Below, one piece after another: positions 4,506 through 46,706 of a DNA stretch of 64,000 bases. The position numbers and the translations under genes are program-made. Position 1 is the first letter of the stretch; each line of letters opens with the position of its first letter. Origin of the DNA: Chamaelirium japonicum (Eukaryota > Streptophyta > Magnoliopsida > Liliales > Melanthiaceae); assembly GCA_947650365.1 (NCBI GenBank), contig OX393550.1, forward strand, positions 102,388,343-102,452,342, read 5' to 3'. The notes below the pieces were generated by a model. It was not told where the DNA came from. It saw only the letters and a list, made by a program, of their open reading frames with translations, and searched no databases.

Positions 4506-4546
4506 TTTTAACCAATGATCCTCATCAAGTTGCTTCCCTCTCTCCA

Positions 4547-14408: not shown

Positions 14409-14566
14409 GTGATACTCATCCCTCATCCTATTGAAGTGTCTGAATCCCTCGTCCACCAACCCGCAGTGGCTGCAAGCCTGCAAGCATACAAGACCCCGAC
14501 CAGCGTGATCTCAGTGGGCACCAGCCTTTCCCTCTCCATGGCGCTGAAGAGCTGGAGGGCCTCCTC
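14409..14566 (-). repeat. Displaced PPR segment fused to the 5' end of PPR copy B
   Basis: This piece repeats 13321-13470 of the same pseudogene (coding ACSHCGLVDEGFRHF on the minus strand). It contains a small extra duplication of GCAAGCCT(GCAAGC). It joins PPR B in frame at about 14409 and HEMERA intron sequence at about 14566. It looks like filler copied in during break repair. Confidence 0.8.
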
Positions 14567-21361: not shown

Positions 21362-21590
21362 CATCCATTTACATGGTGAACCCATCGGGCTCGACACCCC
21401 GGTCGCCGTCGTCCTCTGCCGAAAGAGGGTGAGGGCCTCGTTCAGTCGGCTGTTGATGGCGAACCCGTTGACGATGAAATTCCAGGTGATGAGGTTGCGG
21501 CGGGTCATTCCCTCGAACACCTGGTGCGCGGTCTAGAAGAGGACGAGAGTGTTCTGGACGAAGACCAGCGCTTTCCAACCAATGATCCTC
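21362..21590 (-). pseudogene. PPR gene internal fragment
   Basis: The minus strand encodes FEGMTRRNLITWN, FAINSRLNEALTLF and RGVEPDGFTM, a middle piece of the adjacent DYW PPR protein, with small losses. It lies just 3' of the intact gene and has a counterpart at 4270-4505. It cannot make a functional protein. Confidence 0.8.
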
Positions 21591-21610
21591 ATCAAGTTAC
21601 TTCCCTCTCT

Positions 21611-23503: not shown

Positions 23504-23561
23504 CAGGCCATTTAATCAATGGGTGCACGTAGCTGAATGAACGGTTCTTGAGTATGCTGTT

Positions 23562-23614
<53 letters not shown>

Positions 23615-27100: not shown

Positions 27101-28128
27101 CAAGCATTTGATTTTGTATTTAACCTACATTTGATGAAAAACATATTGGGAATCACAAATGATTTATCAAAGGCATTGCAGCGAAAAGATCAGGATATTG
27201 TGAATGCCATTGCCCTGGTTAAAGTGTCCAAGCAACAACTACAAATAATGAGAGATGATGGATGGGATTCCCTTCTAACTGAAGTTTCTTCATTTTGTGT
27301 CAAGCAAAATATCATTGTCCCTAACATGGATGATAAGTTTATGGCTCGAGGACGAGTACGACACAGAGCTGAAGAAATCACAAATCTACATCATTATCGT
27401 GCTGAGTTATTCTATACCATTATTGATATGCAGCTTCAAGAGCTCAACAATCGCTTTAATGAGGTGAATACTGAGTTGCTCCTTTGTGTGGCATGCCTAA
27501 ATCCGAGTGATTCATTTCGTGCTTTTGATAAACAACAATTGATCTGCCTTGCTGAATTTTATCCTGTTGAGTTTTCAGCGATAGATATCATGGTACTAGA
27601 TAATCAGCTTGAGACTTATATTATTGATGTGCGCACTAACTGTGAGTTTTTAGAAGTGAAAGGAATTAGCGGACTTGCTGAGAAAATGGTTCAGACGAAG
27701 AAAGATAAATTGTATCCGTTAGTTTACATGCTCTTAACACTTGCACTAATCCTACCAGTTGCCACTGCCACTGTTGAAAGAGCATTTTCCGCCATGAAGA
27801 TTGTAAAGAATCGGCTACGCAACCGCATGGGGGATGAATGGATGAATGATTGTTTGGTCATATATATCGAAAAAGATATATTTAACTCCATCAATAATGA
27901 GATCATCATGCAGCGATTTCAAAATATGAAAACTCGACAAGGACAATTGTAGAAAAATTCTCTATGGTATTTTCTTTATATTATATTTTAGTGGAAATAT
28001 CATTATTTGTCTATTTGATGTATCTTTCAATATTTGTTCTATGAAATGAACATATTTTATTGTCTTCTATTATTGATAGATAATTTAATTTTGCCCCCCC
28101 CTTCAAGAAAATCCTGGCTTCGCCCCTA
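24156..28128 (+). mobile_element. hAT DNA transposon, 3973 bp
   Basis: The left end CACGGGCGGAGCGACAT and the inverted right end TAGGGGCGAAGCCAGGAT form imperfect terminal repeats of the CAGGGGCGGAGCCAGG type. They are flanked by 8-bp duplications with one mismatch (CCCGACCG at 24148-24155, CCTGACCG at 28129-28136). The interior has about 1.4 kb of AT-rich leader and one transposase reading frame. Runs of G/C follow the left end (GGGGGGGCAGACCCCCC) and precede the right end (GCCCCCCCCTTC). Confidence 0.85.
25565..27952 (+). pseudogene. hAT transposase (ZMYM1/TTF-type zinc finger, hAT dimerisation)
   Basis: One uninterrupted phase runs through three open segments (25565-25864, 25886-26860, 27089-27952), broken only by in-frame stops at 25862, 26858 and a TAATAA at about 27062. 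There are no frameshifts. The order of parts fits the family: N-terminal MDKFLKRK; TTF-type zinc finger with FCLCCYLF; DUF4371 region with LVDESRDIS, GQGYDGASNMQG and HCFAHQLQL; and a C-terminal hAT dimerisation region with LPVATATVERAFSAMK and NRLRNRMGDEWMND. The full length would be about 795 residues, normal for the family. Loss of function therefore looks recent, and the element could only move with transposase supplied from elsewhere. Confidence 0.88.
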
Positions 28129-28617: not shown

Positions 28618-30832
28618 TGTTGTGATTTTAAATTGTTATACCGCAAGTGCACGGCGTCTATCTGATAGACAGTGGCAAATACGAGTCGATCCCACAGAGA
28701 CTTGGATGAAAACTAATTAAAGGAAAATTAAAGCTAATTAATTTTATATCTTAGTTTAAAAAGATTGATTTTTTGTGAAATTGTTTTGTAACGGAAAATA
28801 TGGAACGCAAAACTGAAAGCTAATTAAGGTTACGGTTGTAATCTATATGGAGAGACATTCTAAGCTCTAGAATCCGCACAAGTAGCGATCTAAACTATAC
28901 TTTTATATGATTTCCAGGATTCTCACGGAGATGTGAAGTCAATCTATCTCCGTGGATGATATTCAATGGAGCACTATTATTTTTTTTTATTTATTTATTT
29001 TTTTTTTTTGACATCGGCGGGTGTCCCGAAACCTTTCGGGCAATGGCCCACTTCAGGCTCGGACTAATCCCTCCGGGAGTGAAGCCCGACCCACTCGGCA
29101 ATTCCCACTTCACTCCTGGGTAAATCAAGGGGAGGAAGAGTTGAACCCACAACCTCATCACCAAAGCATCAGTTGCTTTGCCAACTCTCCAATCCCCTGG
29201 TGGGTAATGGAGCACTATTATGATCACGAATGTAGTGATCTTCCTCGCTTTAATGGAATAAGCCTGAAATACTTCTCCGTAAAATTCGGAGTAATAACAG
29301 AAGCTAACACTATGTAATGATTCTCCGTAAAACTACTCGTAATGACGAAGAATAAAACTATGAGATAAACCTCTGTAGAACTCTGATAATAACGGAGAAT
29401 AAAGCTAACTTATTACAGAAATTTTAATCAAGCATGAATGAGCAAAGATTACTTTATTTTCATTAAACGCACTAAAATATGGAAATCAAATAAGAGCATG
29501 GTTTAGATACAACTACAAGGCTTCCTCCAGAACTTAGAGCGGTGGTTTAGCCTAGCATGGCCATGTGAGCGTTGATGGCGGATGCTTCTTTGAAGATGAC
29601 GAACCCGACGATGATGGCGGCGGCTTCGAGAGCGATGAACGTGGCTCGGAGATGATGAAGAGGGTGAAGATGGCTCCGGTTCGGTCGTCTAAAGCTCCAG
29701 TGGTGATGAAGATGGAGATGGTGGAAGATGGTGACTTCGGTTTGGTGGTGCCAAGCGCCCCTCCGCTCCCCTAGGTTCGTCTGTGCCCCCCTCTATATAG
29801 GATAGAGAAAGAAAAGAGAGAAGTTCGACTGGTTTTAGAGAGAGAAAAACCAGGAAGAGAGAGGAGAGAATAAGGAAAGAGAGAGAACGTAGAGAACGGG
29901 AGAGAGGGCTGCAAGTTCGGTGTGATCCGGTTTTGGGTTTTAGAGAGAGAGAATCAAGGAAAGAGAAAGAAAAACGGGAGGAGAGAGAGAGAGATACGTT
30001 CGGTGGGCGTGGTTAAGAAAAGAGAGAGAGATGGAAAGAGAATCCGAGAGAGAGGATCCCGGTTTTAAGGGCCTGCATGTACCGATCGGACGGCTGTGAT
30101 GGTTGGCTGGGTTTGATGCACTGGATGGCTGTGATTCAGTGGGGAAGAGAGGATCCGGAGAGCTGGGCTGCTGGCCGCTGGTGCACATGCATGCATGCAT
30201 GTGTATGGACGGTTGTGATATTGGGTTGGGGATAGATGGGCAGCTGGGTCTTGGTGGCATGGACGACTGGGATTAAATGGAACGGAGAGGTGGGTGCAAT
30301 AGGGTTTTGATCAGGAACTGCGGATAGAGCTTGGGTTTCTGGGTGAGATGGTGGGTTAAGTCTAGTGTCATCTGTTTTGATCGGGAAGAGTGAAAAACAA
30401 AAGAAAATAGAAGAGAGAGAAAATGTGGCAGGAAGAGGACGATGGCCATCCAGACTTCAATTCCATTATCCATTCATTTGCGCGTGTGTAGCCTTCGTTC
30501 ATGTGGCGAAACCATCTACAGAGTTTTGCTCCATTGTAGCCATGTGCGTTGAAAGCAAGCTCCAATTCCCTGAAAGTACACATAAAATGACATCCATAAG
30601 GTTCCGGGGCATTAATCGATAAAAGGATAATTTGGATTATCAGGCGGTATAACTATCATGCATGATGTGTATGAGAGCGAACCAATATGCCTTTGGGTTC
30701 GTATGAAAGTCTACTATATCATGGTGCAAAGAAACTAATGCAGTTTACGTGTAGTATGAAAGTTTTACGTAGCAAACTGATGATATATGCATAATACTAA
30801 AAGGATAATTCGTATAAATTGGCCGCTCAACA
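28618..30832 (-). repeat. Gypsy 3' LTR (carries the SINE)
   Basis: The 2215-bp copy includes the 225-bp SINE and its 16-bp duplication; otherwise it matches the 1962-bp partner. Beside it the minus strand reads GGTTTGGGGGTG just before TGTTGAGCGG, which is the expected polypurine tract. The outer end holds ACCGCAAGTGCACGG and GATCCCACAGAGACTTGG, words I recognise from many plant Tat/Ogre-type LTRs. Confidence 0.9.
28981..29205 (-). mobile_element. tRNA-derived SINE
   Basis: The element is 225 bp, read on the minus strand. Its head at 29205 reads ACCCACCAGGGGATTGG, followed by an A-box-like TTGGCAAAGCAACTG and a B-box-like GGGTTCAACTCTTCC, and it ends in an A-rich tail (T-rich at 28981-29010 on the plus strand). 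The 16-bp duplication AATGGAGCACTATTAT flanks it exactly (28965-28980 and 29206-29221). The partner Gypsy LTR has the empty site near 45096, so the SINE arrived after the Gypsy. SINE family not assigned. Confidence 0.92.
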
Positions 30833-32091
30833 CACCCCCAAACCTAAATCTTGCTCGCCCTCGAGTAAGAAAAGAAAAATAAACAAATTAAATGACAAAA
30901 TAAAAACTCCTAACTCACTTTCGCAGGAATCGCGACTGCACTTAGCACGTGCAACAAGCCGTTAAACCCCTGGGTTACCCCAATGGACGAGTTTTGTCTC
31001 GTGAGGGTTTGCAGCGAATCTACCCACAAAATTCAAATATTTATTATTATTATTATTATTATTTTTTTCTTTGAAAATATAAATAAGAAATAAGAAAAGT
31101 CGGCTTCATAGAATAATTAAAAAGTACTCAAAAATAGAATTTCTAAGGCACAAGACTCACAAGGTATCTAGCCCAAGCTTCGGCTTTCGAAGTAAGCACT
31201 TTAGGTTCTAACTCTTAGTTTCCCGTTAGAAAAGATCAAGGTCAATTATACTCGAGTGCACGGTGCTGTCTGGGTAAAACACAACTGGGGGTTTGGTTCT
31301 CTACATTCATATCATTCTAACAATCTCCTAGAACGGTCAAAGTCGACCTTAGAACCTGAGTCAAAACCAGCTAATCTAGACAGGCTAGTGAGAGTTGTGG
31401 ATATTCACCTTAATACCTTTCGGCTTTATATGTGATATTCCAGTTTCCCCACATTATTTATAGCGATGGCTTTCACACTATTTTTTTTTTCTTTTTTTTC
31501 TTCGGTCTCATTTTTTTCTGGATCTAATTATATATTCCTTCTTAATTTGTACCATGCTAGCTGCACTCTATGCCCATGACACGCTGCCAACGCTCTCATG
31601 AGTTAGGTAGCCATCCTCATGTTACCTTTATATTTGATTCACTCTGCATCCATAGGATCATTCTCATAACCCTATCGACCAGGCTTCACTCATACTAGGG
31701 CATACAAGTTAAGACTTTTACATAATTAGGTCCTAGACCATGCTAATAGGTAGCCCTTTCCGCTATACCTTAGAATTCACTGGTCGCTTTTCTAATGATT
31801 TTTTTTTTTCCAAACCAAGTGAACCAGATCCGCATGGTTCATCAGAACTCTAGTTGACTATTAGGCCGAAATGAAAGCTTTGAATCTAGACCCTAGAGGT
31901 GTAAGCCAGATGTGAAGTGAAAGGTCAAGTCTAGTTTGTTTTGACAATCTCTAAAAAAGTTACTAAGGGTCAGAACCATATTAGACATACGTTTTCTAGT
32001 TGATCCTTGGACTTTATACCTTGATTACCAGGTGTCTTATAGTCCTATTCGAGTACAATAAAATTATATTACAAAACCTGAAATAAAGGTG

Positions 32092-32133
<42 letters not shown>

Positions 32134-32584
32134 TTTTTTCCGAAAAGAACGAAAAGGACGGCAAAAGTAATGCGATAAGAAACTAAAATAAAAAAAAGAA
32201 AATAAAAACATGCAAATGCAAATTCCTATATATTTTTATACGAACGCTATAGTTTTGGTAGGGGACTACAGACGAGACACATATACGCCAAGACGTATAT
32301 GCCGAGCTGTCCCACTACAGCGTAAGTTGATGCAATGATAATAATAATAATTTTTTTTTATCTCTTAGAACAGAAAAATTTTGTGGAAATTAAATGGATA
32401 TAGGACTTTGCAAAAAGTACACCACACCCCCAAACTTAAATTAGACATTGTCCTTAAAGTATGAATTAGATATGCTCATGAATGAGATGGTAACAATATT
32501 TTCGAAGGACATGTATATAAAATAAAAGTACAAGGTTTTAAGGATGGATATAAAATAAAAGTACAAGGTTTTAAGGATGGATAG
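30833..32584. other. Gypsy internal non-coding region, 3' side
   Basis: This AT-rich stretch lies between the Gypsy 3' LTR and the nested element. It has a (TTA)n run at about 31040-31063, a (TA)n run at about 32097-32128 and several poly-T runs. Near 32424 the minus strand reads AAGTTTGGGGGTGTGG, a second copy of the polypurine-type word found beside the 3' LTR. A 44-bp piece (GGATATAAAATAAAAGTACAAGG) is duplicated at about 32510-32580. No coding domain is recognisable. Confidence 0.65.
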
Positions 32585-33198
32585 TGTGGGTGCAAAAATT
32601 GTACCGGATCAGATCAGAGCAGCATGGGCCCGCGCAACGGCCCAAATGGGTAAGCCCGCCTGGGCTCACATGGGCCCACTCTACGAGGCTCGCAGATCAA
32701 GCCCTACCCCTTATTGGGCCCGAACAACGGCCCAATAAGGGCCCAGCAAGGAGGCCCAGAACCAGTGCCACGTCATCAACGCCACGTCATCACTGCCATA
32801 TCGGGCACGTGCCTACGCTATATAAGGACCCCCAAGGCATCCAGGAAAGGGGTTGGCCATTCAATCAGAGGAGGAGGATCCCAGAGCAAGTGCTAGAGCT
32901 CTATTCTCCCCACCTTGTTCTCTTCTAGTTGCTCCGTGCAACCCCACTGTACGAAGCTTCTCTCGGCCTGTCGAGAGAACGCTCAACCCTTTATATTCAA
33001 ATTATAGTGAAGATCAGGTGGCACCTCTCGCCCGGAGACGTAGGTCGTAAGGCCGAACTCCGTCACCAATCCTTGTGTCATCGCTCTTTATTCTCTCTAT
33101 CTATTCTCCCATCTCTTTAACTCTACAAACCATCCACATTCAATCAAGGCTGTGGGGCGGGGTTCCCGATCAAGGCGGCTCGGAAATTTCCCCCCACA
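32585..33198 (+). repeat. 5' LTR of the nested element
   Basis: This 614-bp LTR has TATATAAGGACC at about 32820 as its likely TATA box, so transcription should start about 30 bp later. It differs from the right LTR at two positions (near 32614 and 32998). Confidence 0.93.
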
Positions 33199-33338
33199 AT
33201 CTTTGGTGCCGTCTGTGGGATATCGATAGAGGTCTTACCCACACCTCTACCGACTCCTATTCAGCTTGTGGTGACGAGCCACAAGTCCTCCTCCAAATCA
33301 ACCTCAAAGCCTTCACCACGCCGACATCAACACGCTCA

Positions 33339-33785
33339 ATGGTGAAGGCCAGCACTAACCCACCAAAGGCGGGTGCTGATCGGACAATCGACGTGCTAAT
33401 CGAAGAAGAACAAGAAGTCTCGGTTGCAACCAATCGAAGAAATGTTTATAAGCGACTGGGGCCACAAGGAAGTCATCCGGGAAGCCACCGCAATCGGCAG
33501 GACCCACCATTCCCGAGGCAACAATCTGGCAAAGAGCACGCCACCCAAGGGGACAACGATCTAACTACATACCAAATTTCAGCTGCTGATTTCCAGCTGT
33601 TGAACCTTCTCAAGAGGAACGCAGCCCTCGAGCAAGAGAGGGATTCCCTAAAGAAGGTAGCTGAAAGAGTGGGGGTTGTGGCCCATAACTCTCCAACTGC
33701 TGATGAAGACCAGCCAAAGACCTTCAATTTCGCCCATTCAAGTCGGAAGCTCGAAGGCAATTCGGCTACGCCCTCTCGAGGCTAA
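33339..33785 (+). CDS. Gag-like N-terminal remnant in the nested element
   Basis: An open frame of 148 residues begins MVKASTNPPKAG and includes RRNVYKRLGPQG and a coiled-coil-like LLKRNAALEQERDSLKKV. This resembles the start of Tat/Retand-type Gypsy gag, but I cannot assign it firmly. Its last roughly 25 codons are the first unit of the 107-bp array that follows, so the array appears to have grown from this coding end. The usual gag core and CCHC knuckle are not seen. Confidence 0.5.
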   Translation: MVKASTNPPKAGADRTIDVLIEEEQEVSVATNRRNVYKRLGPQGSHPGSHRNRQDPPFPRQQSGKEHATQGDNDLTTYQISAADFQLLNLLKRNAALEQERDSLKKVAERVGVVAHNSPTADEDQPKTFNFAHSSRKLEGNSATPSRG

Positions 33786-35204
33786 AGCCCGATAAAAAGG
33801 CTCCTGGCAACCCAGGTCAACCAAAGACCTTCGATTCCGCCCATTCAAGTCGGAAGCTCGAAGGTAATTCGGCTACGCCCTCTCGAGGCTAAAGTCCGAT
33901 AAAAAGGCTCCTGGCAACCCAGGTCAACCAAAGACCTTCGATTCCGCCCATTCAAGTCGGAAGCTCGAAGGCAATTCGGCTACGCCCTCTCGAGGCTAAA
34001 GCCCGATAAAAAGGCTCCTGGCAACCCAAGTCAACCAAAGACCTTCGATTCCGCCCATTCAAGTCGGAAGCTCGAAGGCAATTCGGCTACGCCCTCTCAA
34101 GGCTAAAGTCCGATAAAAAGGCTCCTGGCAACCCAAGTCAACCAAAGACCTTCGATTCCGCCCATTCAAGTCGGAAGCTCGAAGGCAATTCGGCTACGCC
34201 CTCTCAAGGCTAAAGTCCGATAAAGAGGCTCCTGGCAACCCAGGTCAACCAAAGACCTTCACTTCCACCCATTCAAGTTGGAAGCTCGAAGGCAATCCGG
34301 CTACGCCCTCTCGAGGCTAAAGTCCGATAAAAGGCTCCTGGCAACCCAGGTCAACCAAAGACCTTCACTTCCACCCATTCAAGTTGGAAGCTCGAAGGCA
34401 ATCCGGCTACGCCCTCTCGAGGCTAAAGTCCGATAAAAGGCTCCTGGCAACCCAGGTCAACCAAAGACCTTCGATTCCGCCCATTCAAGTCGGAAGCTCG
34501 AAGGCAATTCGGCTACGCCCTCTCGAGGCTAAAGTCCGATAAAAAGGCTCCTGGCAACCCAGGTCAACCAAAGACCTTCGATTCCGCCCATTCAAGTCGG
34601 AAGCTCGAAGGCAATTCGGCTACGCCCTCTCGAGGCTAAAGTCCGATAAAAAGGCTCCTGGCAACCCAGGTCAACCAAAGACCTTCGATTCCGCCCATTC
34701 AAGTCGGAAGCTCGAAGGCAATTCGGCTACGCCCTTTCAAGGCAAAAGTCCGATAAAAAGGCTCCTGGCAACCCAGGTCAATCAAAGACCTTCGATTCCG
34801 CCCATTCAAGTCGGAAGCTCAAAGGCAATTCGGCTACGCCCTCTCGAGGCTAAAGTCCGATAAAAAGGCTCCTGGCAACCCAGGTCAACCAAAGACCTTC
34901 GATTCCGCCCATTCAAGTCGGAAGCTCGAAGGCAATTCGGCTACGCCCTCTCGAGGCTAAAGTCCGATAAAAAGGCCCCTGGCAACCCAGGTCAACCAAA
35001 GACCTTCGATTCCGCCCATTCAAGTCGGAAGCTCGAAGGCAATTCGGCTACGCCCTCTCGAGGCTAAAGTCCGATAAAAAGGCCCCTGGCAACCCAGGTC
35101 AACCAAATACCTTCGATTCCGCCCATTCAAGTCGGAAGCTCGAAGGCAATTCGGCTACGCCCTTTCAAGGCGAAAGTCAGATAAAAATGCTCCTGACAAT
35201 CCAG
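33708..35204 (+). repeat. 107-bp tandem array, about 14 copies
   Basis: The unit runs GGTCAACCAAAGACCTTCGA, then CCGCCCATTCAAGTCGGAAG, CTCGAAGGCAATTCGGCTAC and a tail ending AAGGCTCCTGGCAACCCA. Successive starts at 33815, 33922 and 34029 fix the period at 107 bp; one or two units are 106 bp. Units are about 95% alike or better, with shared variants (ACTTCCACC in two neighbours), which suggests stepwise expansion. The first unit lies in the gag-like frame. Confidence 0.95.
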
Positions 35205-35299
35205 GTCAAGCTAAACTATCAACTATACTTATCCGAGGCGATGAGAATAAGTCCAAGGCAGACGTCGCCGCTTTGACATACACCAAGTTCAAGGAGACG

Positions 35300-36377
35300 T
35301 CCTTGGCACTCGAAGATAAAGTCCGAGGCGACCAATGCCTCGGCACTCTACAAGCCCAAGGCGTAGCCCTTGGCACTTGAAGACAAAGCTTGAGGCGACC
35401 AATGCCTCGGCACTCTACAAGCCCAAGGCCCAGCCCTTGGCACTCGAAGATAAAGTCCGAGGTGACCAATGCCTCGGCACTCTACAAGCCCAAGGCCCAG
35501 TCCTTAGCACTTGAAGACAAAGTCCGAGGCGACCAATGCCTCGGCACTCTACGAGCCCAAGGCCCAGTCCTTGGCACTTGAAGACAAAGTCCGAGGCGAC
35601 CAATGCCTCGGCACTCTACGAGCCCAAGGCCCAGTCCTTGGCACTTGAAGACAATGTTCGAGGCGACCAACGCCTCGGCACTCTACAAGCCCAAGGCCCA
35701 GCCCTTGGCACTCGAAGACAAAGTCCGAGGCGATCAATGCCTCGGCACTCTACAAGCCCAAGGCCCAGCCCTTGGCACTCGAAGATAAAGTCCGAGGTGA
35801 CCAATGCCTCGGTATTCTACAAGCCCAAGGCGTAGCCCTTGGCACTCGAAGATAAAGTCCGAGGCGATCAATGCCTCGGTACTCTACAAGCCCAAGGCGT
35901 AGCCCTTGGCACTCGAAGATAAAGTCCGAGGCGACCAATGCCTCGGCATTCTACAAGCCCAAGGCCCAGCCCTTGGCACTCGAAGACAAAGTCCGAGGCG
36001 ACCAACGCCTCGGTACTCTATAAGCCCAAGGCCCAGCCCTTGGCACTCGAAGATAAAGTCCGAGGCGATCAATGCCTCGGCACTCTACAAGCCAAAGCCC
36101 AGCCCTTGGCACTCGAAAACAAAGTCCGAGGCGACCAACGCCTCGGCACTCTACAAGCCCAAGGCCCAGCCCTTGGTACTTGAAAACAAAGTCCGAGGCG
36201 ACCAACGCCTCGGCACTCTACAAGCCCAAGGCCCAGCCCTTGGCACTTGAAGACAAAGCTCGAGGCGACCAATGCCTCGGCACTCTACAAGCCCAAGGCC
36301 CAGCCCTTGGCATTCGAAGACAAAGTCCGAGGCGACCAACACCTCGGCACTCTATAATCCCAAGGCCCTACCCTTGA
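35300..36377. repeat. 67-bp tandem array, about 16 copies, two palindromes per unit
   Basis: The unit runs TTGGCACTCGAAGATAAAGT, CCGAGGCGACCAATGCCTCG, then GCACTCTACAAGCCCAAGGC and CCAGCCC. Each unit holds two inverted repeats: CCGAGGC/GCCTCGG with a 7-bp loop, and GCC(C)AAGG/CCTTGGC with a 5-6-bp loop. Because 67 is not a multiple of three, open frames cycle through all phases on both strands; they are by-products of the array, not genes. Neighbouring units show ordered variants. Confidence 0.95.
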
Positions 36378-36879
36378 CACATAAAGATAAAGTCCGAGAC
36401 GTCGTCGCCGACATATTGGCATTCGATCAAAAGTCCAGGCTTAGTCTTGTCACTCAGGTCCAAGCATTAGATTGTCAATGGCCATCACCTTTTCTCGACG
36501 ACTAGCGGTTCCAAGCCGGTCAGGGGGTGGTTGGTCTGACTCTGTCAGTGCGTGTCTCCACACTGGTGCAGTCAACGGTGGGTAACACAGGATAAAATGG
36601 TGCTTCCTTGATCCTGGCTAAGTCAACACCCTCGCGTGACCGTAGTACCTGGTGAATACAGTAACCAGGTACGGTAATACATTGGGTGAAGACCGGCTGG
36701 CCATCATGCGGCGTCATCCTAGATTATCTCTAAGAAACCCCCTCGAATGTAGCATTGTCCCTCGCCGACATCCTCGCGCACCAGCGTTTCACCGAAAAAG
36801 TGTCGGTTTCAAATGGGGCTAAAATTCGAAAAATACACTATTTTCAATACCGACACTTTTTGGCCTCTTCTAGCAGCCC

Positions 36880-37425
36880 CAATAATGGGGTGTCGGCATC
36901 AACAAGCAGCCCCCCCTCGGTTTCGCACAAAAACCGAGTGGGGAAAGGGTGACGGCACACCGTCAGTAGCACACCCCTCGGTTTCGTCAAAAAAACCGAG
37001 AGGGGGTGTGCGTCGGCATCAACAAGCACACCCCTCGGTTTCGTCAGAAAACCGAGAGGGGGTGTGTGTCGGCATCAACAAGCAACCCCCCCTCGGTTTC
37101 GCACAAAAACCGAGTGGGGAGGGGGTGACGGCACACCATCAGCACACCCCTCGGTTTCGTCAGAAAACCGAGAGGGGGTGTGTGTCGGCATCAACAAGCA
37201 ACCCCCCCTCGGTTTCGTCAGAAAACCGAGAGGGGGTGTGTGTCGGCATCAACAAGCAACCCCCCCTCGGTTTCGCACAAAAACCAAGTGGGGAGGGGGT
37301 GACGGCACACCATCAGCAACCCACCCCTCGGTTTCGGCAGAAAACCAAGAGGGGGGGTGTTCGGCATCAATATCAACCCACCTCGTGGTTTCGTCAGAAA
37401 ACCGAGAGGGAGGGTGCTCGACGTC
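36880..37425. repeat. Array of about nine roughly 59-bp hairpin modules
   Basis: Modules near 36912, 36973, 37030, 37089, 37146, 37206, 37265, 37325 and 37380 each carry CCTCGGTTT and, after a 6-8-bp loop (CGTCAGA or CGCACAA), AAACCGAG(A/T)GGG. In the best modules the stem extends to CACCCCTCGGTTT / AAACCGAGAGGGGGTG. Spacers alternate between GTCGGCATCAACAAGCA and GACGGCACACCATCAGCA, so a longer two-module repeat overlies the basic one. Confidence 0.9.
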
Positions 37426-37739
37426 ATCCAAAATCTATTAGTTAACCCGATTCAAGTGTCATCCACACACAATGATCATTCAAAGACGAAGAGCTATCTT
37501 CCATTGAGTTGGTTGAATAACATCTCAAATAAAACTATCAAGTTGGTTGTACAAACTTCACAAGCTTGGAAATTCCTCTCTCATCTGGGGGTGGACCTGC
37601 GGTAACCACCACGTCATCGTGGAGGCCTGACTGTAGTCCCTAGTGAACACAGTAACTAGGTGCAGTTGGGTGCCGACCAGTGATACGTGAATTATTGCAA
37701 GTCAATGCGTCTTAGAGATGCGAGCAAAAAAAAAAAACT

Positions 37740-38120
37740 GGCCTGCTTGCTTTTTAAATCACCTTTTTACGAAGATGAATATCGAAAATGTTACACATTA
37801 AAGTGTATGATGTTTCACGTCCACTTTGACCGTTTTTTCGATGCCTACACAACGGCACCTTATACGCATTCATCCGACATGTGTATGAAAAGTTACGGCT
37901 ATCAGAAGTTTTTGAGGTACTTTTCTTCAAAGACAGACATCGGAAAAGTTGTACGTCAAGGGGAACCATATTTCACGTCTACCTTGATCAGTTTTCCGAC
38001 GCCGACGCAATGGCGCCTTATACGCATCGATCCGATGCTCGTATGAAAAGTTATGATTGTCGGAGGCTTTCGAGACATTTCTTCTTGAAGACTAACTTCG
38101 GAGAAGTTACACGGCAGCGA
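37740..38120. repeat. 158-bp degenerate tandem repeat, about 2.4 copies
   Basis: Shared landmarks TTTCACGTC(C/T)AC, CCTTATACGCAT, TATGAAAAGTTA and TCTTCAAAG/CTTGAAGAC recur 158 bp apart (TATGAAAAG at about 37884 and 38042). Copies are clearly diverged, so this array is older than the 107- and 67-bp ones. Open frames through it resemble no known protein. Confidence 0.7.
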
Positions 38121-38388
38121 CGGTCACACTGACGCCTTCAACCTGGTTCACTATGCGACCAACCCGTAGCAGGCCAAACACTGCACATAAGAGAAGAAAT
38201 CATGCCTCTCCTCGCGAGCATGGGTACTTGGCGGCAGCGGGTCAGAATGGGGACAAGGGGTTGGATGAACCAAACCCCCCTCCTACACGCTCTCCTCACA
38301 CATACCTCATGCACACGCTACTCCTTGTAGCCAACAGAGACAACCCGGCGTGGCGTCGGACGAGCCAAACGCTCACCCCCCCCCCCTT

Positions 38389-38860
38389 CCGCGCGACCTC
38401 CTCAAGCTCATCCAACTCGGCCTCACTGTCACCGACAAGTGCGGCCGCCTCCCCGCCCGCGGCGACGGCGGCCGCCCCTGCGTCTGGCAGTTCAACTTCC
38501 GCGAGTTCGACGCCCGGACCGACGTCTTCGCCGCCGACTCCATCGAGCTCCCCCGCCGCTTCGGCGAGCTCCTCATGTCCTCCGGCGTCGTGCTCGACGA
38601 TGGTGTCAGCTGGGTCACGTTCCATAGCGGGTACGACTTCGGGTACCTCCTCAAGCTCCTCACCTGCCGGCACCTCCCCGACACCTAGGCTGGTTTCCTC
38701 GACCTCATCCGGCTCTACTTTCCCACCGTCTACGACGTCGAGCACCTCATAAAGTTCTGCAACAGCCTCCATGGGGGGCTGAACAAGCTCGCCGAGATCC
38801 AGGAGGTCGAGCGGATCGGGGTCTGCCACCAGGCCGGCTCCGACAGCTTGCTCTGCTCTG
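38389..38860 (+). pseudogene. Captured fragment of a CAF1/POP2 (CCR4-NOT) deadenylase gene
   Basis: The plus strand encodes [109 protein letters not shown] and [12 protein letters not shown]. This is the order of a plant CAF1 DEDD 3'-5' exonuclease, which shortens mRNA poly(A) tails in the CCR4-NOT complex. The second and third catalytic regions (YDFGYL, CHQAGSD) are present. The first (DTEFPG) is missing, part of the middle is lost and the frame is interrupted, so it is not functional. Plant CAF1 genes are usually intron-less, so DNA or RNA capture cannot be told apart. It lies wholly inside the nested LTR element. Confidence 0.9.
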
Positions 38861-39219
38861 CTCTCTCACCGAAAACAAAGAAAAAAAAAAAAAAAAGGGG
38901 GAGGAGGGGCCGCAGCCCCCTCTTCCTCTTCTCCTCCGATCCAGTCGGGAGGGCCGCCCGACTCGCGCCCGCAGCCCCCTTCTCCAACCCGAGCGGGGCC
39001 AGCTCCCGGCCCGCGCCCGGAGCCGCGCGCCGACCGCAATGCGCGCCCCGCGGCGCAGCTCGTGTGCAGCCCGCCGCTGCGCCCCACGCAGCTGTCCGCG
39101 CGCAGCCCACCCGCCTGCGCCGCTGCCCCGCGCCGGTCCGGCCTCTGCGCCGCCTGCGCCCGGGCCTTCGCTTGCTTCGCTGCCTCCACGAGCCAAAGGA
39201 GAAACAGAGGGAGATGAGC
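38861..39219. other. GC-rich filler between captured segments
   Basis: A very GC-rich stretch begins with a poly-A run (about 38878-38896). It is open in several frames on both strands, as expected from composition, with Ala/Arg/Pro-rich translations. I see no conserved domain. It may be untranslated or intronic sequence of a captured gene. Confidence 0.4.
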
Positions 39220-39640
39220 TTCTCGGTCTTCCATGTTGGGGAGCTCGTGTCGATCACCGTCACCTCCGTCCGCGAGCACGCCGACAGATCCGAATCCGCG
39301 GGCTCGACGGCGCCCAGCTTCCTCCTTGGCTTCGTCCGGCTCTTCCTCACCTCAGCAATGCTGTTGTCGGCGCTCGGCAGCGACATAGCTGGAGCACGGC
39401 AAGCCGCCTGCAGGCCCACCGCCGAGAAGCTGCCGTCGGCGCTGGCCGAAGCCGAGGGGGCGCGGAGCTTGGGGTTGGGCTGCTTCCGGGATTTCTTCCT
39501 CTCCCCTATGGTTCGGGACGCCGGCCGTCCCTCCGGGTCTCCCATGATGAAGAGCTCCGATAGGACGTCGCTCATCAGATCCAACAGCCGCTCCTCATCT
39601 CCGATCTTCTTGTCGGTGACGGAAAGAGAGAGAGAGGTAC
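39220..39640 (-). pseudogene. Possible second captured host coding segment (unknown protein)
   Basis: The minus strand reads [63 protein letters not shown] and [18 protein letters not shown] in one phase, from about 39640 to 39227. The basic KSR.KP patches and the [11 protein letters not shown] ending look like real plant protein sequence rather than random GC-rich frame, but I cannot name the family. The ending may be an exon edge. Its opposite strand to the CAF1 piece suggests a separate capture event. Confidence 0.45.
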
Positions 39641-39990
39641 GCTGTCACATGCATGAAAGCTGAAGAGGAAAGAGAGAGAGAGAAAGGAAAGAGAGAGAGC
39701 GAGAGAAACCTCTCTCACGTGAACGGAATGCAGAGCAGAAAAAGTGAGAGAAAGAATGAAAAGAGAGAGAGAGCGGGGGCAGCCTCACGTAAACCCCGCC
39801 CCACAGACTCACGTGAAGGCAAGCCTCTTTGAGGAGATTGTGGCGCAGGCTCAGCGGGCTGATCTCTCACGCTCTCACGTAGATGGAAAGCAGAGAATGG
39901 AAAGAGAGAGAGAGAAAGGAAAGGGAGAGAGAGAGCGACGTCTGCTCTCATCCGAGTCAAAGCCAAAGAAGGAATAAAGAGAAAAGATAT
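39641..39990. repeat. GA-rich low-complexity stretch
   Basis: Repeated AGAGAGAGA blocks are separated by CTCTCACGT(G/A) and TCACGTGAA words, a short imperfect repeat with a CACGTG core. No gene is supported. Confidence 0.6.
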
Positions 39991-39994
39991 TCCC

Positions 39995-40310
39995 TCACCA
40001 AACGGGTCTCGGTACCCTCTCGGTAACCACTTGGTATGCTCTCGGTACCCACTCGGTATGCACTCGGTACCCTCTCGGTATCCACTCGGTCGAAAAACGC
40101 ACTACCTTTTCGGAAACACCCCCTTGCAAAACCGAGACTTTTTGGCTTGCACCAAAAGGGTCTCGGTAACCACTCGGTATGCTCTCGGTACCCACTCGGT
40201 ATGCACTCGGTACCCTCTCGGTATCCACTCGGTCGGAAAACGCACTGTTTTTTTCAGAAACACCCTCTCGCAAAACCGAGACTTTTTGGCTCGCGCCAAA
40301 AAGGGTCTCG
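39995..40310. repeat. CTCGGTA 11-bp repeats inside a duplicated roughly 145-bp block
   Basis: Two successive blocks each hold six or seven 11-bp units of the type (C/T)(A/T)CTCGGTAnn, then TCCACTCGGTCG(A/G)AAAACGCACT, a GAAACACCC segment and GCAAAACCGAGACTTTTTGGC. The CTCGG...CCGAG words also occur in the hairpin array at 36.9-37.4 kb. The block ends 130 bp before the right LTR. Confidence 0.88.
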
Positions 40311-40447
40311 GCATCGGCGGAAGAAGGCCCTGCTAATACGAACCGCGGCACCGACAACCCTCGCCAACCGCGCCAGGATCCTAAAGCGTTTGCACCATGG
40401 AATCCCAGCCGACCCAGGGGGTCCTGACCCGACTGGGAGGGGGTAAC

Positions 40448-41061
40448 TGTGGGTGCAAAAATTGTACCGGATCATATCAGAGCAGCATGGGCCCGCGCAA
40501 CGGCCCAAATGGGTAAGCCCGCCTGGGCTCACATGGGCCCACTCTACGAGGCTCGCAGATCAAGCCCTACCCCTTATTGGGCCCGAACAACGGCCCAATA
40601 AGGGCCCAGCAAGGAGGCCCAGAACCAGTGCCACGTCATCAACGCCACGTCATCACTGCCATATCGGGCACGTGCCTACGCTATATAAGGACCCCCAAGG
40701 CATCCAGGAAAGGGGTTGGCCATTCAATCAGAGGAGGAGGATCCCAGAGCAAGTGCTAGAGCTCTATTCTCCCCACCTTGTTCTCTTCTAGTTGCTCCGT
40801 GCAACCCCACTGTACGAAGCTTCTCTCGGCCTGTCGAGAGAACGCTCAACCCTTTATATTTAAATTATAGTGAAGATCAGGTGGCACCTCTCGCCCGGAG
40901 ACGTAGGTCGTAAGGCCGAACTCCGTCACCAATCCTTGTGTCATCGCTCTTTATTCTCTCTATCTATTCTCCCATCTCTTTAACTCTACAAACCATCCAC
41001 ATTCAATCAAGGCTGTGGGGCGGGGTTCCCGATCAAGGCGGCTCGGAAATTTCCCCCCACA
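40448..41061 (+). repeat. 3' LTR of the nested element
   Basis: This 614-bp LTR begins TGTGGGTGC directly after the purine-rich GGGAGGGGGTAAC and ends CCCCCACA before the target duplication GATAG. It differs from the left LTR at two positions. Confidence 0.93.
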
Positions 41062-41416
41062 GATAGTACCTCATAAGTTCTTTGTATCCTTATTTTCTGC
41101 AAAATATTAGTACTACAAAGAAAAGAACAAAGCGACTAAATAGACTAATAAAGACGAGCAGATGCTAATGATTTTTTTTTTTGACTATTATAATTCAAAT
41201 AAGTTTTTCAGCAGATGGAATCTTAAAAAAGAAAAGAGAGTAGTCATTAATTGAAAAATTATATTCTATAGTATACATTGGGTATGTTTCTGCGTGACTC
41301 TCCTTTATTTTATAAGGGTTCATCCTATATTGTTCTTTATGAATTTTCTTTTCAAATGGAACAATATAAGATTCATTATTTGTATCATCTATATTATTTT
41401 TGAAAAGTTTGTATAA

Positions 41417-44083
41417 TTAAATTTTTTGATTTTGATTGAATTGAGGAGAAATTAAATCAGAAAATATATATTCTTCACCCAAATATGTATATTGAAACTC
41501 AGATAGAAGAGTTTGTAGATCAATGCATGATTTTTCGATAATAATTGGATGATCAATCATGATACCATTAATTTCAAGATTCGTTGATAGAGCATTGACT
41601 TCTTTAGCAAACATATCACTATCAATGATATAAGGAAGATCATGGGTGACATCTAGTAATGCAGTGATTGTATTGATATGATTATCAATATCCAAATTCT
41701 TTCCAAAATGTGCAAGGCAGGCTTCCAGTGGGTCATTATAGTTTACTTGTGATACACAACTGTCTTTTTGTTCTTGCAAGTAGTTGACCTCTTCTAATTC
41801 ATTACTTTCATCTCTCGGTTGTTTGCTCACATTAAATATATTGACTTGTATTGTCATGTTACCGAAAGAAATGTTCATGACACCATTCCGACAGTTGATT
41901 AATGCATTCGATGTTGCTAGGAAAGGTCGCCCTAAGATTACTGGTACTCGATTAGTAAATTCAGTTGGTGGTTTTGTATCCAGGACCACAAAGTCAACAG
42001 AAAATACAAATTCTCCTACTTTGATTAGGACGTCTTCCACTATCCCTTTAGGATATCGAATTGAAGCATCAGCTAGCTGGAGGGTCACTCTAGTGGGTTT
42101 TAACTCCCCCAGACCTAGCTCTTCATATATGGAATATGGAAGGAGGTTGACACTAGCACCTAAATCGAGCAAGGCTTTCTCAATATGATATTCCCCTATT
42201 TCACAGGAAATAGTAGGACAACCAGGGTCCTTATATTTGATAGGGGTTGAGCATGAAATAACTGAACTAGCCTGCTGAGCCAGAAATGCTCTCTTGGGTA
42301 CATTAGTTGTTCTCTTAAAAGTGCAAAGGTCCTTTAAGAATTTGGCATATGTAGGTATTTGTTGGATTGCATCTAAGAGTGGAATATTAATTTTCACTTG
42401 CATGAAGACTTCAAGCATATTATCCATTTGCATTTTCTTCTTTGCTGGCTCTAGTCTTTGAGGATATGGGGCTCTAGGAATATAAGTTCTAAGAGGTGGT
42501 TCACTAGGTGATGCAATATTTTCAGTATCGTTTCTTGTGTTCTCCCTAGTTTCCTCTTGTGATTTTGGTTCCTCTTCAGGTGTTTCTTCAGTTCTTATGT
42601 CATTCTGCCTAAGTTCCTCAGTTTCTTTAGGAGGTTCTATAATGTTATCAACTTGCCGTCCTGACCTAAGTGTAGTAATTGTATTTGCCTGCTCATAGCC
42701 TTTTCCTTTGATATCATGAACTTCAAATTGACCCCTTGGATTTGACTCTTTAGGGTTAGCCTCAGGTTGACTTGGGAATGTACCCTTATCTCTTGTATTC
42801 AAAGAATCAGCTAGTTGACTCACAGTGTATTCTAACTTCGCAATAGATTGTGTGTTAGCACTAATGCTTTGTGCGGTGCTCTGTTGGAATTGGAGGGTAT
42901 TCTGGGCTAATAGTTTCATCGTTTCCTCCAGAGAATGGATTCTTTGATTATCTGGATTAGGGATGACATTCTGTATGGGTGGCTTTTGAAACCCTAGAGA
43001 TGGTACAGACTGAGATGGGCCACCTTGGTATGGACCTGTAGTCCATGAGAAATTTGGATGATTCTTCCATCCTTCATTGTAAGTGTTTGAATATGGATTA
43101 TGTTTTTGTTGATTATCAAAATGATTGTTTTGATGCAAAGCATTGATTCTTTTCATATTATTTTCTTGTCTCCCTAACATCGGGCATCGATAATCTGCAT
43201 GGGTAGGTTCACTACAAATTGAGCAAATAGAAAAGCTAGGCTCATTATTGCAACTCATAGTTTGATTAAGGCTTAATGCCTCTAAGGTATTTGGAGTGGA
43301 AGTCCTATTTCCATGATTCATTTCTAGAGCTTCTAAGTGTCTCATCACAGTGGCTAGTTTAGCTTCTGCTTCTAATTTAGGTTCAACTTTATAGAATCCA
43401 CCTTGTGCAGTAGGGGAAAATTTCCTAGAATCATCTATGATTGGTTCCCACTGTAGTGTATTCTCTGCAATTTCTTCTAAGTAGGTCCAGGCTTGATCTG
43501 CTGTCTTTTTGGTGAACTCACCATTACAACATGATTCTATCATGGTCTTAGATGGGTAGTTCAATCCTTCATAAAGGATTTGGACTAGTCTAATTTTTTC
43601 AAAACCATGGTGTGGACAATGCAGTAGTAGGTCCTTAAATCTTTCTATGTATTTATAGAGAGCTTCACCTTCCAGTTGGTGAAACACATTCAAGGCCTGA
43701 CGAATCGAGGCCGTCTTTTGTTTAGAATAGAATTTTCTATAAAAGAGCTCTAGTAGGCTTACCCACGTAGTTATGGATTTAGCTTGTAAGCCATAAAGCC
43801 ATGCTTTAGCCTTCTCTTTTAGCGAGAAGGGGAATAATCTAAGTTTGAGATTTTCTTCGGACATATTATCGAATTTCATTGTTCCACATATGTCCTCGAA
43901 TTCCCTCACGTGTTGATATGGATTTTCCTGCTCCATTCCCCGAAAGACGGGGAGCATTTGGATTAAGCCAGATTTTAATTCAAATTTTGCATTAGTGGTC
44001 GGTAAGGTTATGCAAGAAGGTTGTGTAGCCCTAGTGGGATACATATAATCCCCTAAGGTGATTGCTTGCGGCTGTTCCGCCAT
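41417..44083 (-). CDS. Gag-protease polyprotein of the Gypsy element
   Basis: An 888-residue frame. Residues of about 45-215 form the retrotransposon gag domain (RLFPFSLKEKAKAWLYGL, FYRKFYSKQKTASIRQAL). A CCHC-like knuckle, CSICSEPTHADYRCP, lies near 290. A Gln/Asn-rich linker follows, with acidic EETPEEEPKSQEETREN near 500. The retroviral-type aspartic protease lies near 640-760: ALLDLGASVNLLPYSIYEEL, then RVTLQLADASI and PVILGRPFLATSNALINC. DLGAS instead of DTGAS is usual in Tat/Athila elements. The frame is open throughout and starts 660 bp after the 5' LTR. No pol frame follows on this strand, so the element would depend on a partner. Confidence 0.9.
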   Translation of the reverse strand: MAEQPQAITLGDYMYPTRATQPSCITLPTTNAKFELKSGLIQMLPVFRGMEQENPYQHVREFEDICGTMKFDNMSEENLKLRLFPFSLKEKAKAWLYGLQAKSITTWVSLLELFYRKFYSKQKTASIRQALNVFHQLEGEALYKYIERFKDLLLHCPHHGFEKIRLVQILYEGLNYPSKTMIESCCNGEFTKKTADQAWTYLEEIAENTLQWEPIIDDSRKFSPTAQGGFYKVEPKLEAEAKLATVMRHLEALEMNHGNRTSTPNTLEALSLNQTMSCNNEPSFSICSICSEPTHADYRCPMLGRQENNMKRINALHQNNHFDNQQKHNPYSNTYNEGWKNHPNFSWTTGPYQGGPSQSVPSLGFQKPPIQNVIPNPDNQRIHSLEETMKLLAQNTLQFQQSTAQSISANTQSIAKLEYTVSQLADSLNTRDKGTFPSQPEANPKESNPRGQFEVHDIKGKGYEQANTITTLRSGRQVDNIIEPPKETEELRQNDIRTEETPEEEPKSQEETRENTRNDTENIASPSEPPLRTYIPRAPYPQRLEPAKKKMQMDNMLEVFMQVKINIPLLDAIQQIPTYAKFLKDLCTFKRTTNVPKRAFLAQQASSVISCSTPIKYKDPGCPTISCEIGEYHIEKALLDLGASVNLLPYSIYEELGLGELKPTRVTLQLADASIRYPKGIVEDVLIKVGEFVFSVDFVVLDTKPPTEFTNRVPVILGRPFLATSNALINCRNGVMNISFGNMTIQVNIFNVSKQPRDESNELEEVNYLQEQKDSCVSQVNYNDPLEACLAHFGKNLDIDNHINTITALLDVTHDLPYIIDSDMFAKEVNALSTNLEINGIMIDHPIIIEKSCIDLQTLLSEFQYTYLGEEYIFSDLISPQFNQNQKI

Positions 44084-44720
44084 CTCTACGATGTTATTAT
44101 AATCAATTCTAATTAATCTTTTTCCTACGCGTGCCTAAACTGCGGACTGTGTGTCCAGATTAATGTGCCAATTAAGTATTAGTAGTTTAACTAATATAAT
44201 GATATGCTAGTAAAGAAAACAAAGTATGTACTTTATTAGAATACTTATGTAAGTAGAGAATCTACTATTATGCAATGCAGCACCATAGCAAATGGTTTCT
44301 ATCAATGCAAGGTTGAGTGTACACCTCAGACTGAGACACACATACAACTATAAGAGGTGTATGTGCCGAGCTGGCGACAACCTTACAAAGTTGCAATGCA
44401 ATTCGATTATTTGATCTACGGTGAAAGTTTGCACATTAGCCGGTTATCCTAATTACTACGGTTGTTGAATCAGCAGGAGTAAGCAATAGGAGTACGTAAT
44501 CAAACCCACTGACTGGAGAGGCGTGGGTAAGGGTTTAAATACTTACCTTGCGATGCTTATGCAAGTTTTCCGTAGAGCGTGTAAGTACCGGAAAAGTTAA
44601 ACAGAAGATAATAAGTACGAAAGAGACAAAATACGAAAATAAAATAACTACGAATACTAATACTGATTTTTTTTTTTTAAAGCAAATAAAAACTAAACTT
44701 TAATAGTTTTCAAACTCAAG

Positions 44721-44738
44721 TCGCCGGCAACGGCGCCA
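44721..44738 (-). other. Primer-binding site of the Gypsy element (tRNA-Asp type)
   Basis: On the minus strand TGGCGCCGTTGCCGGCGA lies six bases inside the 5' LTR. It is complementary, with one mismatch, to the 3' end of plant tRNA-Asp (…CCCGGCAACGGCGCCA). This PBS is common in Athila/Tat elements. Confidence 0.85.
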
Positions 44739-44744
44739 AAAACT

Positions 44745-46706
44745 TGTTGTGATTTTAAATTGTTATACCGCAAGTGCACGGCGTCTATCTGATAGACAGT
44801 GGCAAATACGGGTCGATCCCACAGAGACTTGGATGAAAACTAATTAAAGGAAAATTAAAGCTAATTAATTTTATATCTTAGTTTAAAAAGATTGATTTTT
44901 TGTGAAATTGTTTTGTAACGGGAAATATGGAACGCAAAACTGAAAGCTAATTAAGGTTACGGTTGTAATCTATATGGAGAGACATTCTAAGCTCTAGAAT
45001 CCGCACAAGTAGCGATCTAAACTATACTTTTATATGATTTCCAGGATTCTCACGGAGATGCGAAGTCAATCTATCTCCGTGGATGATATTCAATGGAGCA
45101 CTATTATGATCACGAATGTAGTGATCTTCCTCGCTTTAATGGAATAAGCCTGAAATACTTCTCCGTAAAATTCGGAGTAATAACAGAAGCTAACACTATG
45201 TAATGATTCTCCGTAAAACTACTCGTAATGACGAAGAATAAAACTATGAGATAAACCTCTGTAGAACTCTGATAATAACGGAGAATAAAGCTAACTTATT
45301 ACAGAAATTTTAATCAAGCATGAATGAGCAAAGATCACGTTATTTTCATTAAACGCACTAAAATATGGAAATCAAATAAGAGCATGGTTTAGATACAACT
45401 ACAAGGCTTCCTCCAGAACTTAGAGTGGTGATTTAGCCTAGCATGGCCATGTGAGCGTTGATGGCGGATGCTTCTTTGAAGATGACGAACCCGGCGATGA
45501 TGGCGGCGGCTTCGAGAGCGATGGACGTGGCTCGGAGATGATGAAGAGGGTGAAGATGGCTCCGGTTCGGTCGTCTAAAGCTCCGGTGGTGATGAAGATG
45601 AAGATGGTGACTTCGGTTTGGTGGTGCCAAGCGCCCCTCCGCTCCCCTAGGTTCGTCCGTGCCCCCCTCTATATAGGATAGAGAAAGAAAAGAGAGAAGT
45701 TCGGCTGGTTTTAGAGAGAGAAAAACCAGGAGGAGAGAGGAGAGAATAAGGAAAGAGAGAGAACGTAGAGAACGGGAGAGAGGGCTGCAAGTTCGGTGTG
45801 ATCCGGTTTTGGGTTTTAGAGAGAGAGAATCAAGGAAAGAGAAAGAAAAACGGGAGGAGAGAGAGAGATACGTTCGGTGGGCGTGGTTAAGGAAAGAGAG
45901 AGAGATGGAAAGAGAATCCGAGAGAGAGGATCCCGGTTTTAAGGGCCTGCATGTGCCGATCGGACGGCTGTGATGGTTGGCTGGGTTTGATGCACTGGAT
46001 GGCTGTGATTCAGTGGGGAAGAGAGGATCCGGAGAGCTGGGCTGCTGGCCGCTGGTGCACATGCATGCATGCATGTGCATGGACAGTTGTGATATTGGGT
46101 TGGGGATAGATGGGCGGCTGGGTCTTGGTGGCATGGACGGCTGGGATTAAATGGAATGGAGAGGTGGGTGCAATAGGGTTTTGATCAGGAACTGCGGATA
46201 GAGCTTGGGTTTCTGGGTGAGATGGTGGGTTAAGTCTAGTGTCATCTGTTTTGATCGGGAAGAGTGAAAAACAAAAGAAAATAGAAGAGAGAGAAAATGT
46301 GGCAGGAAGAGGACGATGGCCATCCAGACTTCAATTCCATTATCCATTCATTTGCGCGTGTGTAGCCTTCGTTCATGTGGCGAAACCATCTACAGAGTTT
46401 TGCTCCATTGTAGCCATGTGCGTTGAAAGCAAGCTCCAATTCCCTGAAAGTACACATAAAATAACGTCCATAAGGTTCCGGGGCATTAATCGATAAAAGG
46501 ATAATTTGGATTATCAGGCGGTATAACTATCATGCATGATGTGTATGAGAGCGAACCAATATGCCTTTGGGTTCGTATGAAAGTCTACTATATCATGGTG
46601 CAAAGAAACTAATACAGTTTACGTGTAGTATGAAAGTTTTACGTAGCAAACTGATGATATATGCATAATACTAAAAGGATAATTCGTATAAATTGGCCGC
46701 TCAACA
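44745..46706 (-). repeat. Gypsy 5' LTR
   Basis: The 1962-bp LTR retains the empty SINE site near 45096. It carries GA-rich tracts (45720-45930) and an alternating CATG run (about 46055-46075). Long open frames inside it also occur in the partner LTR and are composition-driven, not genes. Confidence 0.9.

Follow-up and report, generated by a model that had tools for sequence, protein, structure and literature searches.

Host-gene pickup by long terminal repeat (LTR) retrotransposons is known mostly from single cases. The maize element Bs1 holds three host genes according to the account in PMC13317346, and a maize survey lists 425 elements with gene fragments from at least 189 captures, none of them, in the portion of that report available, with more than one standard nuclear gene (PMC2774510). 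For rice and sorghum, 672 and 1,343 genes are given (PMC3726574, whose section 6 assigns 1,343 proteins to rice). Non-autonomous LTR elements that have gag only, the TR-GAG elements, were named in a survey of oil palm (PMC4608283). Tat elements characteristically carry variable tandem arrays (PMC7004042), and Ogre forms that keep gag beside the arrays but lack pol have been reported (PMC7004042, PMC11963269). For the Tat arrays strand transfer between co-packaged copies is a published hypothesis (PMC7004042), and in Retand, as far as the available text of PMC11963269 goes, there are at most three arrays per cluster and an antisense TRP28 open reading frame (ORF) in 97% of clusters. Here we describe an element, W, in a stretch of 64,000 nucleotides of Chamaelirium japonicum (contig OX393550.1, positions 102,388,343 to 102,452,342; the window) and compare it with these systems.

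W occupies positions 32585–41061 of the window, on contig C2 of the 1.52-Gb assembly. It is probably a recent copy of a large, non-autonomous, gag-only, Tat-like LTR family that is mobilised in trans and that has gained and exchanged its cargo by strand transfer. The unusual part is gene capture, with different host genes in the different subfamilies at one slot; the tandem arrays are a chassis common to the whole family and are not peculiar to W. A sequence-only reading of the window had described W as an LTR element of recent origin that consists for the most part of arrays and captured host sequence, which was borne out. It had also thought the combination of arrays and capture unusual. For the capture this was an understatement, while the arrays are found family-wide and are a known Tat trait.

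Of the 3,491 first-look candidates from a genome search with the W LTR, 40 were scored; the resulting list has 41 places, 40 with an identity of 99–100%. The complete copies number 15, namely W and L009–L019, L023, L025 and L026, with L020/L021 (a nested place) and L029 being partial (L and C numbers denote genomic places and contigs respectively), and the sample is skewed toward LTRs nearest to that of W. All 15 have a perfect 5-bp target duplication. In 14 the two LTRs differ at 0–4 positions, summing to 26 over 14 × 614 bp or 0.30%, and in the fifteenth, L026, the pair is only 96.1% identical. At 1.3e-8 substitutions per site per year, a rate that is the rice value and not from the plant analysed, the two differences in 614 bp place the insertion of W roughly 0.1 million years ago. 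The 107-bp and 67-bp arrays are present, in unchanged order, in every complete copy, the approximately 58-bp and 11-bp arrays in 14 of the 15, and sequence like the 158-bp repeat in 13. The sequence-only reading had proposed that same-LTR copies be sought and their arrays counted, and would have given way had no other copy held any of them; the 107-bp and 67-bp arrays are in all 14 other complete copies elsewhere in the genome, and the arrays are therefore not a local assembly expansion. One copy, L014 (5627–8229), is only 2.6 kb long, a miniature that still has its two LTRs and a perfect target duplication but no cargo slot. Between its LTRs are a shortened gag start, five units of 107 bp and four of 67 bp, with no other arrays, and it narrows the cis requirements of the element. 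Several copies are nested or joined at L020, where two family LTRs lie in opposite orientation 27 bp apart (64–1319) and further LTR pieces are found at 3412–3990 and 4695–4870.

The cargo slot, which runs from the last preceding repeat to the 11-bp block, measures 1.3–2.2 kb in 13 copies; that of L012 has about 1.0 kb and is unlike the others, and L014 has none. Its position in the chassis is constant in the copies read. LTR identity has the same mean, 98.4%, for the 7 pairs of copies from one cargo class and for the 84 pairs from different classes, and yet in 75 of the 90 ordered comparisons among ten representative slots less than 20% of the length is shared. In the other 15 comparisons the slots have part of their sequence in common or are mosaics, namely classes B and C (61–68%), L016 and L019 (60–65%), classes C and F (34–42%), W and L021 (28–36%), and L029 as compared with B, C and L017 (at most 41%). 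Classes B and C, and likewise C and F, have long cargo blocks in common at 87–99% identity and are thus mosaics. Between classes the LTRs range over 94.8–99.8% identity, the gag start over 86.0–98.8% and a conserved spacer over 92.3–99.8%, whereas most of the cargo cannot be aligned.

All the hallmarks of an LTR retrotransposon were found in W: near-identical LTRs, a target duplication, a predicted primer binding site (PBS) and a polypurine tract (PPT). The LTRs are 614 bp apiece with two mismatches and the termini TGTGGG...CCCACA, and enclose an interior of 7,249 bp (33199–40447). The features of W, with the evidence in brackets, are as follows.

32580–32584, no strand: left target site duplication GATAG, 5 bp (sequence self-comparison).
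32585–33198, plus strand: 5' LTR, 614 bp (two differences from the 3' LTR).
33204–33220, plus strand: predicted primer binding site, TGGTGCCGTCTGTGGGA (sequence and comparison of copies; it is TGGCGCCGTCTGTGGGA in 12 of the 14 other complete copies).
33339–33785, plus strand: truncated gag start, 148 aa and a stop (ORF; related copies with a 568-aa gag frame).
33714–35209, plus strand: 107-bp array, 14.0 units, 96% matches (Tandem Repeats Finder).
35301–36398, plus strand: 67-bp array, 16.4 units, 91% matches (Tandem Repeats Finder).
36399–36889, plus strand: conserved spacer (93–98% identity in the other copies holding it).
36890–37410, plus strand: 58/174-bp array, 8.9/3.0 units, hairpin-forming (Tandem Repeats Finder).
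37813–38108, plus strand: weak 158-bp repeat, 1.9 diverged copies, 75% matches (Tandem Repeats Finder).
38109–40006, plus strand: cargo slot, the stretch that differs among subfamilies (comparison of copies; the first 69–263 bp are common to some).
38395–38853, plus strand: host CAF1 fragment, truncated at both ends (phmmer, Pfam, genome match).
38877–38909, plus strand: 33-nt purine tract directly past the CAF1 fragment (further tracts from 39621, 39662, 39758 and 39899).
39209–39622, minus strand: fragment of a host gene without an assigned name, antisense to W (96% to C12:18343271–18343687).
40007–40340, plus strand: 11-bp (CTCGGTAnCCA) blocks in two copies of an approximately 145-bp unit (Tandem Repeats Finder and self-comparison).
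40435–40447, plus strand: polypurine tract adjoining the 3' LTR (sequence; identical tract in the other 14 complete copies).
40448–41061, plus strand: 3' LTR, 614 bp (two differences from the 5' LTR).
41062–41066, no strand: right target site duplication GATAG (sequence self-comparison).

The two nearly identical LTRs with their intact duplication, and an interior of 7.2 kb with nothing of gag but its start, are thus as had been read from the letters alone. All five of the arrays named there were detected as well, though the 158-bp repeat is weak and the 11-bp array consists of two blocks (×7.5 and ×6.5) within units of about 145 bp that are 92% alike by self-match.

The slots were scanned for host families with Pfam, covering 149 of 158 cargo ORFs, with the slot of L012 covered by the sense ORFs of the pol scan (below) only. 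The families found are CAF1, GT47, O-methyltransferase (OMT), NAM, peroxidase and NmrA. In W the first part of the CAF1 fragment matches CCR4-NOT subunit 7 in the PDB (phmmer, E 7e-23), its Pfam score of 21.2 being under the curated cut-off of 24.2. It is 96% identical to an intact, intronless CAF1 ORF elsewhere in the genome (L044), so that the CAF1 fragment that had been read from the letters is real; 51 nt of the gene are missing from it and there is one in-frame stop. The second coding-like fragment noted there likewise looks gene-derived. It is 414 bp long, antisense, and 96% identical to an apparent host gene on C12, and it has only three matches in the genome: W, a sister copy on C8 whose LTR is 97% identical to that of W, and C12. 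All 11 full-length CAF1 fragments at 95% identity or more lie inside the chassis. Since the second gene is present in only two of these 11, it is most likely that the cargo of W was gained stepwise, CAF1 first. CAF1 sequence at 11 further, dispersed places matches the W fragment but is longer by about 51 nt (84–87% with the gap); the one place read, L044, holds the complete intronless ORF.

The other subfamilies hold other genes. Classes B and C have a GT47 exostosin, the best single piece scoring 39.2 bits against a Pfam cut-off of 33.4. L052, a copy with related cargo whose ends were not read, has an antisense NmrA piece within its GT47 cargo (E 5.2e-8), and L018 retains part of this piece, too short for Pfam. 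The cargo of L016 and L019 is an O-methyltransferase with its nearest gene at 93% (L047), that of L029 is a NAC domain, and that of L017 is a peroxidase with a Pfam score under the curated cut-off. An older copy, L051, in which the LTR and PPT region is 93–94% identical to that of W, has both a CAF1 piece, 77% identical to that of W, and a peroxidase piece. For class A (L010), class F (L025) and L021, Pfam gave no host family in the cargo below E 0.01, and the class A piece is common in blocks to many other copies. Near-identical places were found for each cargo, 11 for CAF1 (95–100%), 11 for OMT (98–100%), 23 for NAC (94–100%), 14 for peroxidase (99–100%), nine for GT47 of class C (96–100%) and eight for class A (98–100%). 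Gene-like relatives outside the element were found for captured pieces in the CAF1 ORF L044, the OMT gene L047 and L032, the relative of the second gene.

Some candidate donors, introns and domains were set aside. On C12, 2.7 kb separate two CAF1 pieces; this suggested an intron in the parent, an idea that was dropped since the L044 ORF is intronless and the fragment lacks the 51 nt. For NAC, an intron is seen at the site in the paralogue L045, and the closer gene L048 is without it. The extra 120 bp or so in four GT47 places is, in L052, the one read, part of the antisense NmrA piece. L046 was considered as a peroxidase parent, though its flanks suggest another copy of the element. Weak Pfam rows such as Atrophin-1, DUF7622 and other single rows were taken as chance matches on repetitive translations.

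At the level of the family the coding content is that of a gag-only element. An intact gag frame of 568 aa is present in L012, L016 and L019 (Pfam Retrotrans_gag, E 1.7e-8 for L016) with no pol found, while W has the gag start only; in W and the other 11 complete copies the 107-bp array comes directly after this start. Pfam found no Retrotrans_gag in the 148-aa stub of W. Of 126 sense ORFs from ten copies, three gave a match to Retrotrans_gag and none to a protease, reverse transcriptase, RNase H or integrase family; in nine complete copies the ORFs had at least 120 aa and had passed a low-complexity filter, in L049 they had at least 100 aa, and five complete copies were outside the scan. In the one member read of the group of L049 and L050, which has a 573-aa gag frame, there was no pol domain. 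The long 3' region with variable tandem arrays is a Tat trait. TRP28 (PF04195) was not found in 10 ORFs of W or in the 149 cargo ORFs, on both strands, and for this reason we call the family Tat-like and not a member of Retand.

Copies of the element move and have kept LTRs, PBS and PPT whole, so the proteins would have to come in trans, and we suppose that an autonomous partner supplies the enzymes. Reverse transcriptase switching strands onto co-packaged RNAs would then lead to both gain and exchange of cargo, perhaps assisted by the arrays and purine tracts, and the same slippage could add or remove array units. This extends the strand-transfer hypothesis for Tat arrays to host RNA, and would explain the changes by whole units, the mosaics and the site of capture.

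The arrays range over 3.3–14 units (107 bp) and 4.1–33.4 units (67 bp) across the complete copies. Siblings of class A, with cargo 99.4–99.7% identical, have 7.0, 9.0 and 8.0 units of 107 bp and 17.4, 13.4 and 13.4 of 67 bp, and siblings of class C, with cargo 99.0% identical, have 33.4 and 17.4 units of 67 bp. As copies with near-identical cargo differ by whole units, array length changes faster than single bases do. Compared with shuffles, the predicted RNA folds are stable for the 58-bp array (z −6.2), for two units of the 67-bp array (z −3.6) and for the 158-bp repeat (z −3.3), and not clearly so for the 107-bp array (z −1.0) or the 11-bp blocks (z −1.5 and −1.3). The stem of the 58-bp hairpin is preserved in most units, with clear covariation at one outer pair. 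That the element might be a mobile source of satellites, as had also been suggested, is so far without support, though the idea may yet hold. No place with an adjacent second match was seen among 40 scored of 1,581 candidates for the 107-bp array, where the query was 1,496 bp and longer arrays are visible only as adjacent matches, and no long stand-alone 67-bp array was seen among 40 scored of 2,109, the longest joined run being 2,679 bp (C8).

Ten slots hold 5–11 purine-only runs of at least 13 nt apiece, 76 in all, of which 66 are in the 3' half, compared with 14 runs of pyrimidines; when two-base blocks are shuffled, 0.1–0.4 purine runs per slot result, and the interiors upstream of the slot have five such runs in seven copies. 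With hairpin arrays as one neighbour and purine tracts both within it and beyond it, the region could be a true capture slot, at which these features make reverse transcriptase leave the RNA of the element, copy part of a co-packaged host RNA and then return. This we put forward tentatively, as an idea that may well prove wrong. Were it right, new host genes could be loaded at each wave of amplification while the ends stay constant, and the family would be a retrotransposon counterpart of the Pack-type gene shufflers.

Several observations weigh against cargo exchange by strand transfer in a trans-mobilised family. The autonomous partner was not found by a genome search with gag, in which 77 of 22,173 first-look candidates were scored; the matches have open frames of 568–777 aa, some with internal stops, and include no gag-pol fusion, though a separate pol is possible. 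Capture from mRNA is not proven, because no cargo fragment was found that spans a proven intron of its donor. For CAF1 the gene that was read has no intron; for OMT and the second gene of W the captured piece falls inside a single ORF of the gene examined; and the NAC fragment extends across the position at which an intron is usual, but the nearest gene read (L048) lacks it. The second gene of W and the NmrA fragment are antisense, an orientation that plain switching onto mRNA does not yield. A purine run follows within 24 nt of the host fragment in just five of eight cases, the distance being 123–217 nt in the other three, and as this comparison was made after the runs had been noticed it is a lead only. 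Covariation in the arrays is weak, with one of 18 pairs of the 58-bp hairpin beyond all 500 shuffles and three further pairs at 7–21 of 500, and no covarying pair was found in the 67-bp hairpins (500 shuffles). Lastly, the gag start is 91.0% identical between cargo classes and 99.6% within them, and the spacer 94.6% and 98.6% respectively; both therefore track the cargo, and swapping would not be completely free.

The orientation of the fragments and the absence of a proven spliced junction would both fit entry at the level of DNA, where a Helitron, a Pack-MULE or break repair placed the gene pieces, retrotransposition amplified them and later exchange made the mosaics. That CAF1 sequence with the extra 51 nt stands at 11 dispersed places, of which one (L044) was read, also suggests another route of CAF1 mobility. 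The identical position of the slot in the chassis of the copies read weighs against such entry, which we consider unlikely while taking it seriously. The tracking of cargo class by the gag start and spacer is, on the other hand, what might be seen if the slot differences are old, the subfamilies having long diverged with only their LTRs homogenised by recombination or conversion during replication. However, LTRs, gag start and spacer still align between classes where most of the cargo does not, the B/C and C/F mosaics are at 87–99% identity, and the second gene of W is in only two of the 11 CAF1 copies, so that this explanation seems improbable. Gene fragments are common in the LTR elements of cereals (425 maize elements, PMC2774510), and W might accordingly be simply a decayed LTR element into which pieces of genes were inserted by chance, with nothing specific to the family; this is scarcely credible in view of the perfect duplications in 15 of 15 copies and the amplification of every cargo to 8–23 near-identical places.

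W is nested in another, minus-strand LTR element (28618–46706), with LTR-like blocks at about 28618–30832 and 44745–46706 that are piecewise 98–99% alike and a 905-aa gag-like ORF at 41417–44134, which we take to have an Athila-like look. As scant space remains for pol, the outer element may be non-autonomous like W. A 33-bp direct repeat (32511–32583, 2.2 copies, 97%) stops just left of the W insertion site. Elsewhere in the window are three minus-strand copies, 94–97% identical and by eye like pentatricopeptide-repeat genes (3781–6492, 12603–14409 and 20882–23564, the last with the longest ORF of the three, 634 aa), pieces of a hAT-like transposase ORF, also by eye (25544–27952), and a 53/105-bp tandem array of 3.8 units outside W (60638–60841).

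With several captures, some of two genes, between near-identical LTRs in one young family of one genome, it is possible to read off which genes were the donors, where the junctions lie and in what order the pieces were gained. Small RNAs directed at the donor genes might also arise from the cargo, in which pieces of CAF1, NAC, OMT, GT47, peroxidase and NmrA genes have been multiplied in sense and antisense orientation.

As to known systems, Dasheng and RIRE2 of rice resemble the arrangement proposed for the W family, in that a high-copy non-autonomous element is the partner of an autonomous relative; we know of no comparable gene-cargo slot for Dasheng. Among the open-access PMC papers listed, at the level of titles and the openings of abstracts, none was found to describe a family whose chassis is constant while one slot holds different, in some cases multiple, host genes. 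With TR-GAG elements the family shares LTRs, PBS, PPT and an intact gag with no pol domain found, in L012, L016 and L019; it differs in that W and 11 of the 14 others have the gag start only, and in its additional arrays and cargo slot. With Tat elements (Ogre and Retand) it shares several kinds of mutually unrelated tandem array, variable in unit number from one copy to the next; it differs, as far as the available text of PMC7004042 and PMC11963269 goes, in that no pol or TRP28 was found, in having five array types where Retand has at most three per cluster, and in the host-gene cargo in the same region. With Bs1 and other gene-capturing LTR elements it has in common the presence of host gene fragments within an LTR element. 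What sets it apart from these, as they are described in the available portions of the reports, is that within the one W family the subfamilies hold different host genes in one slot.

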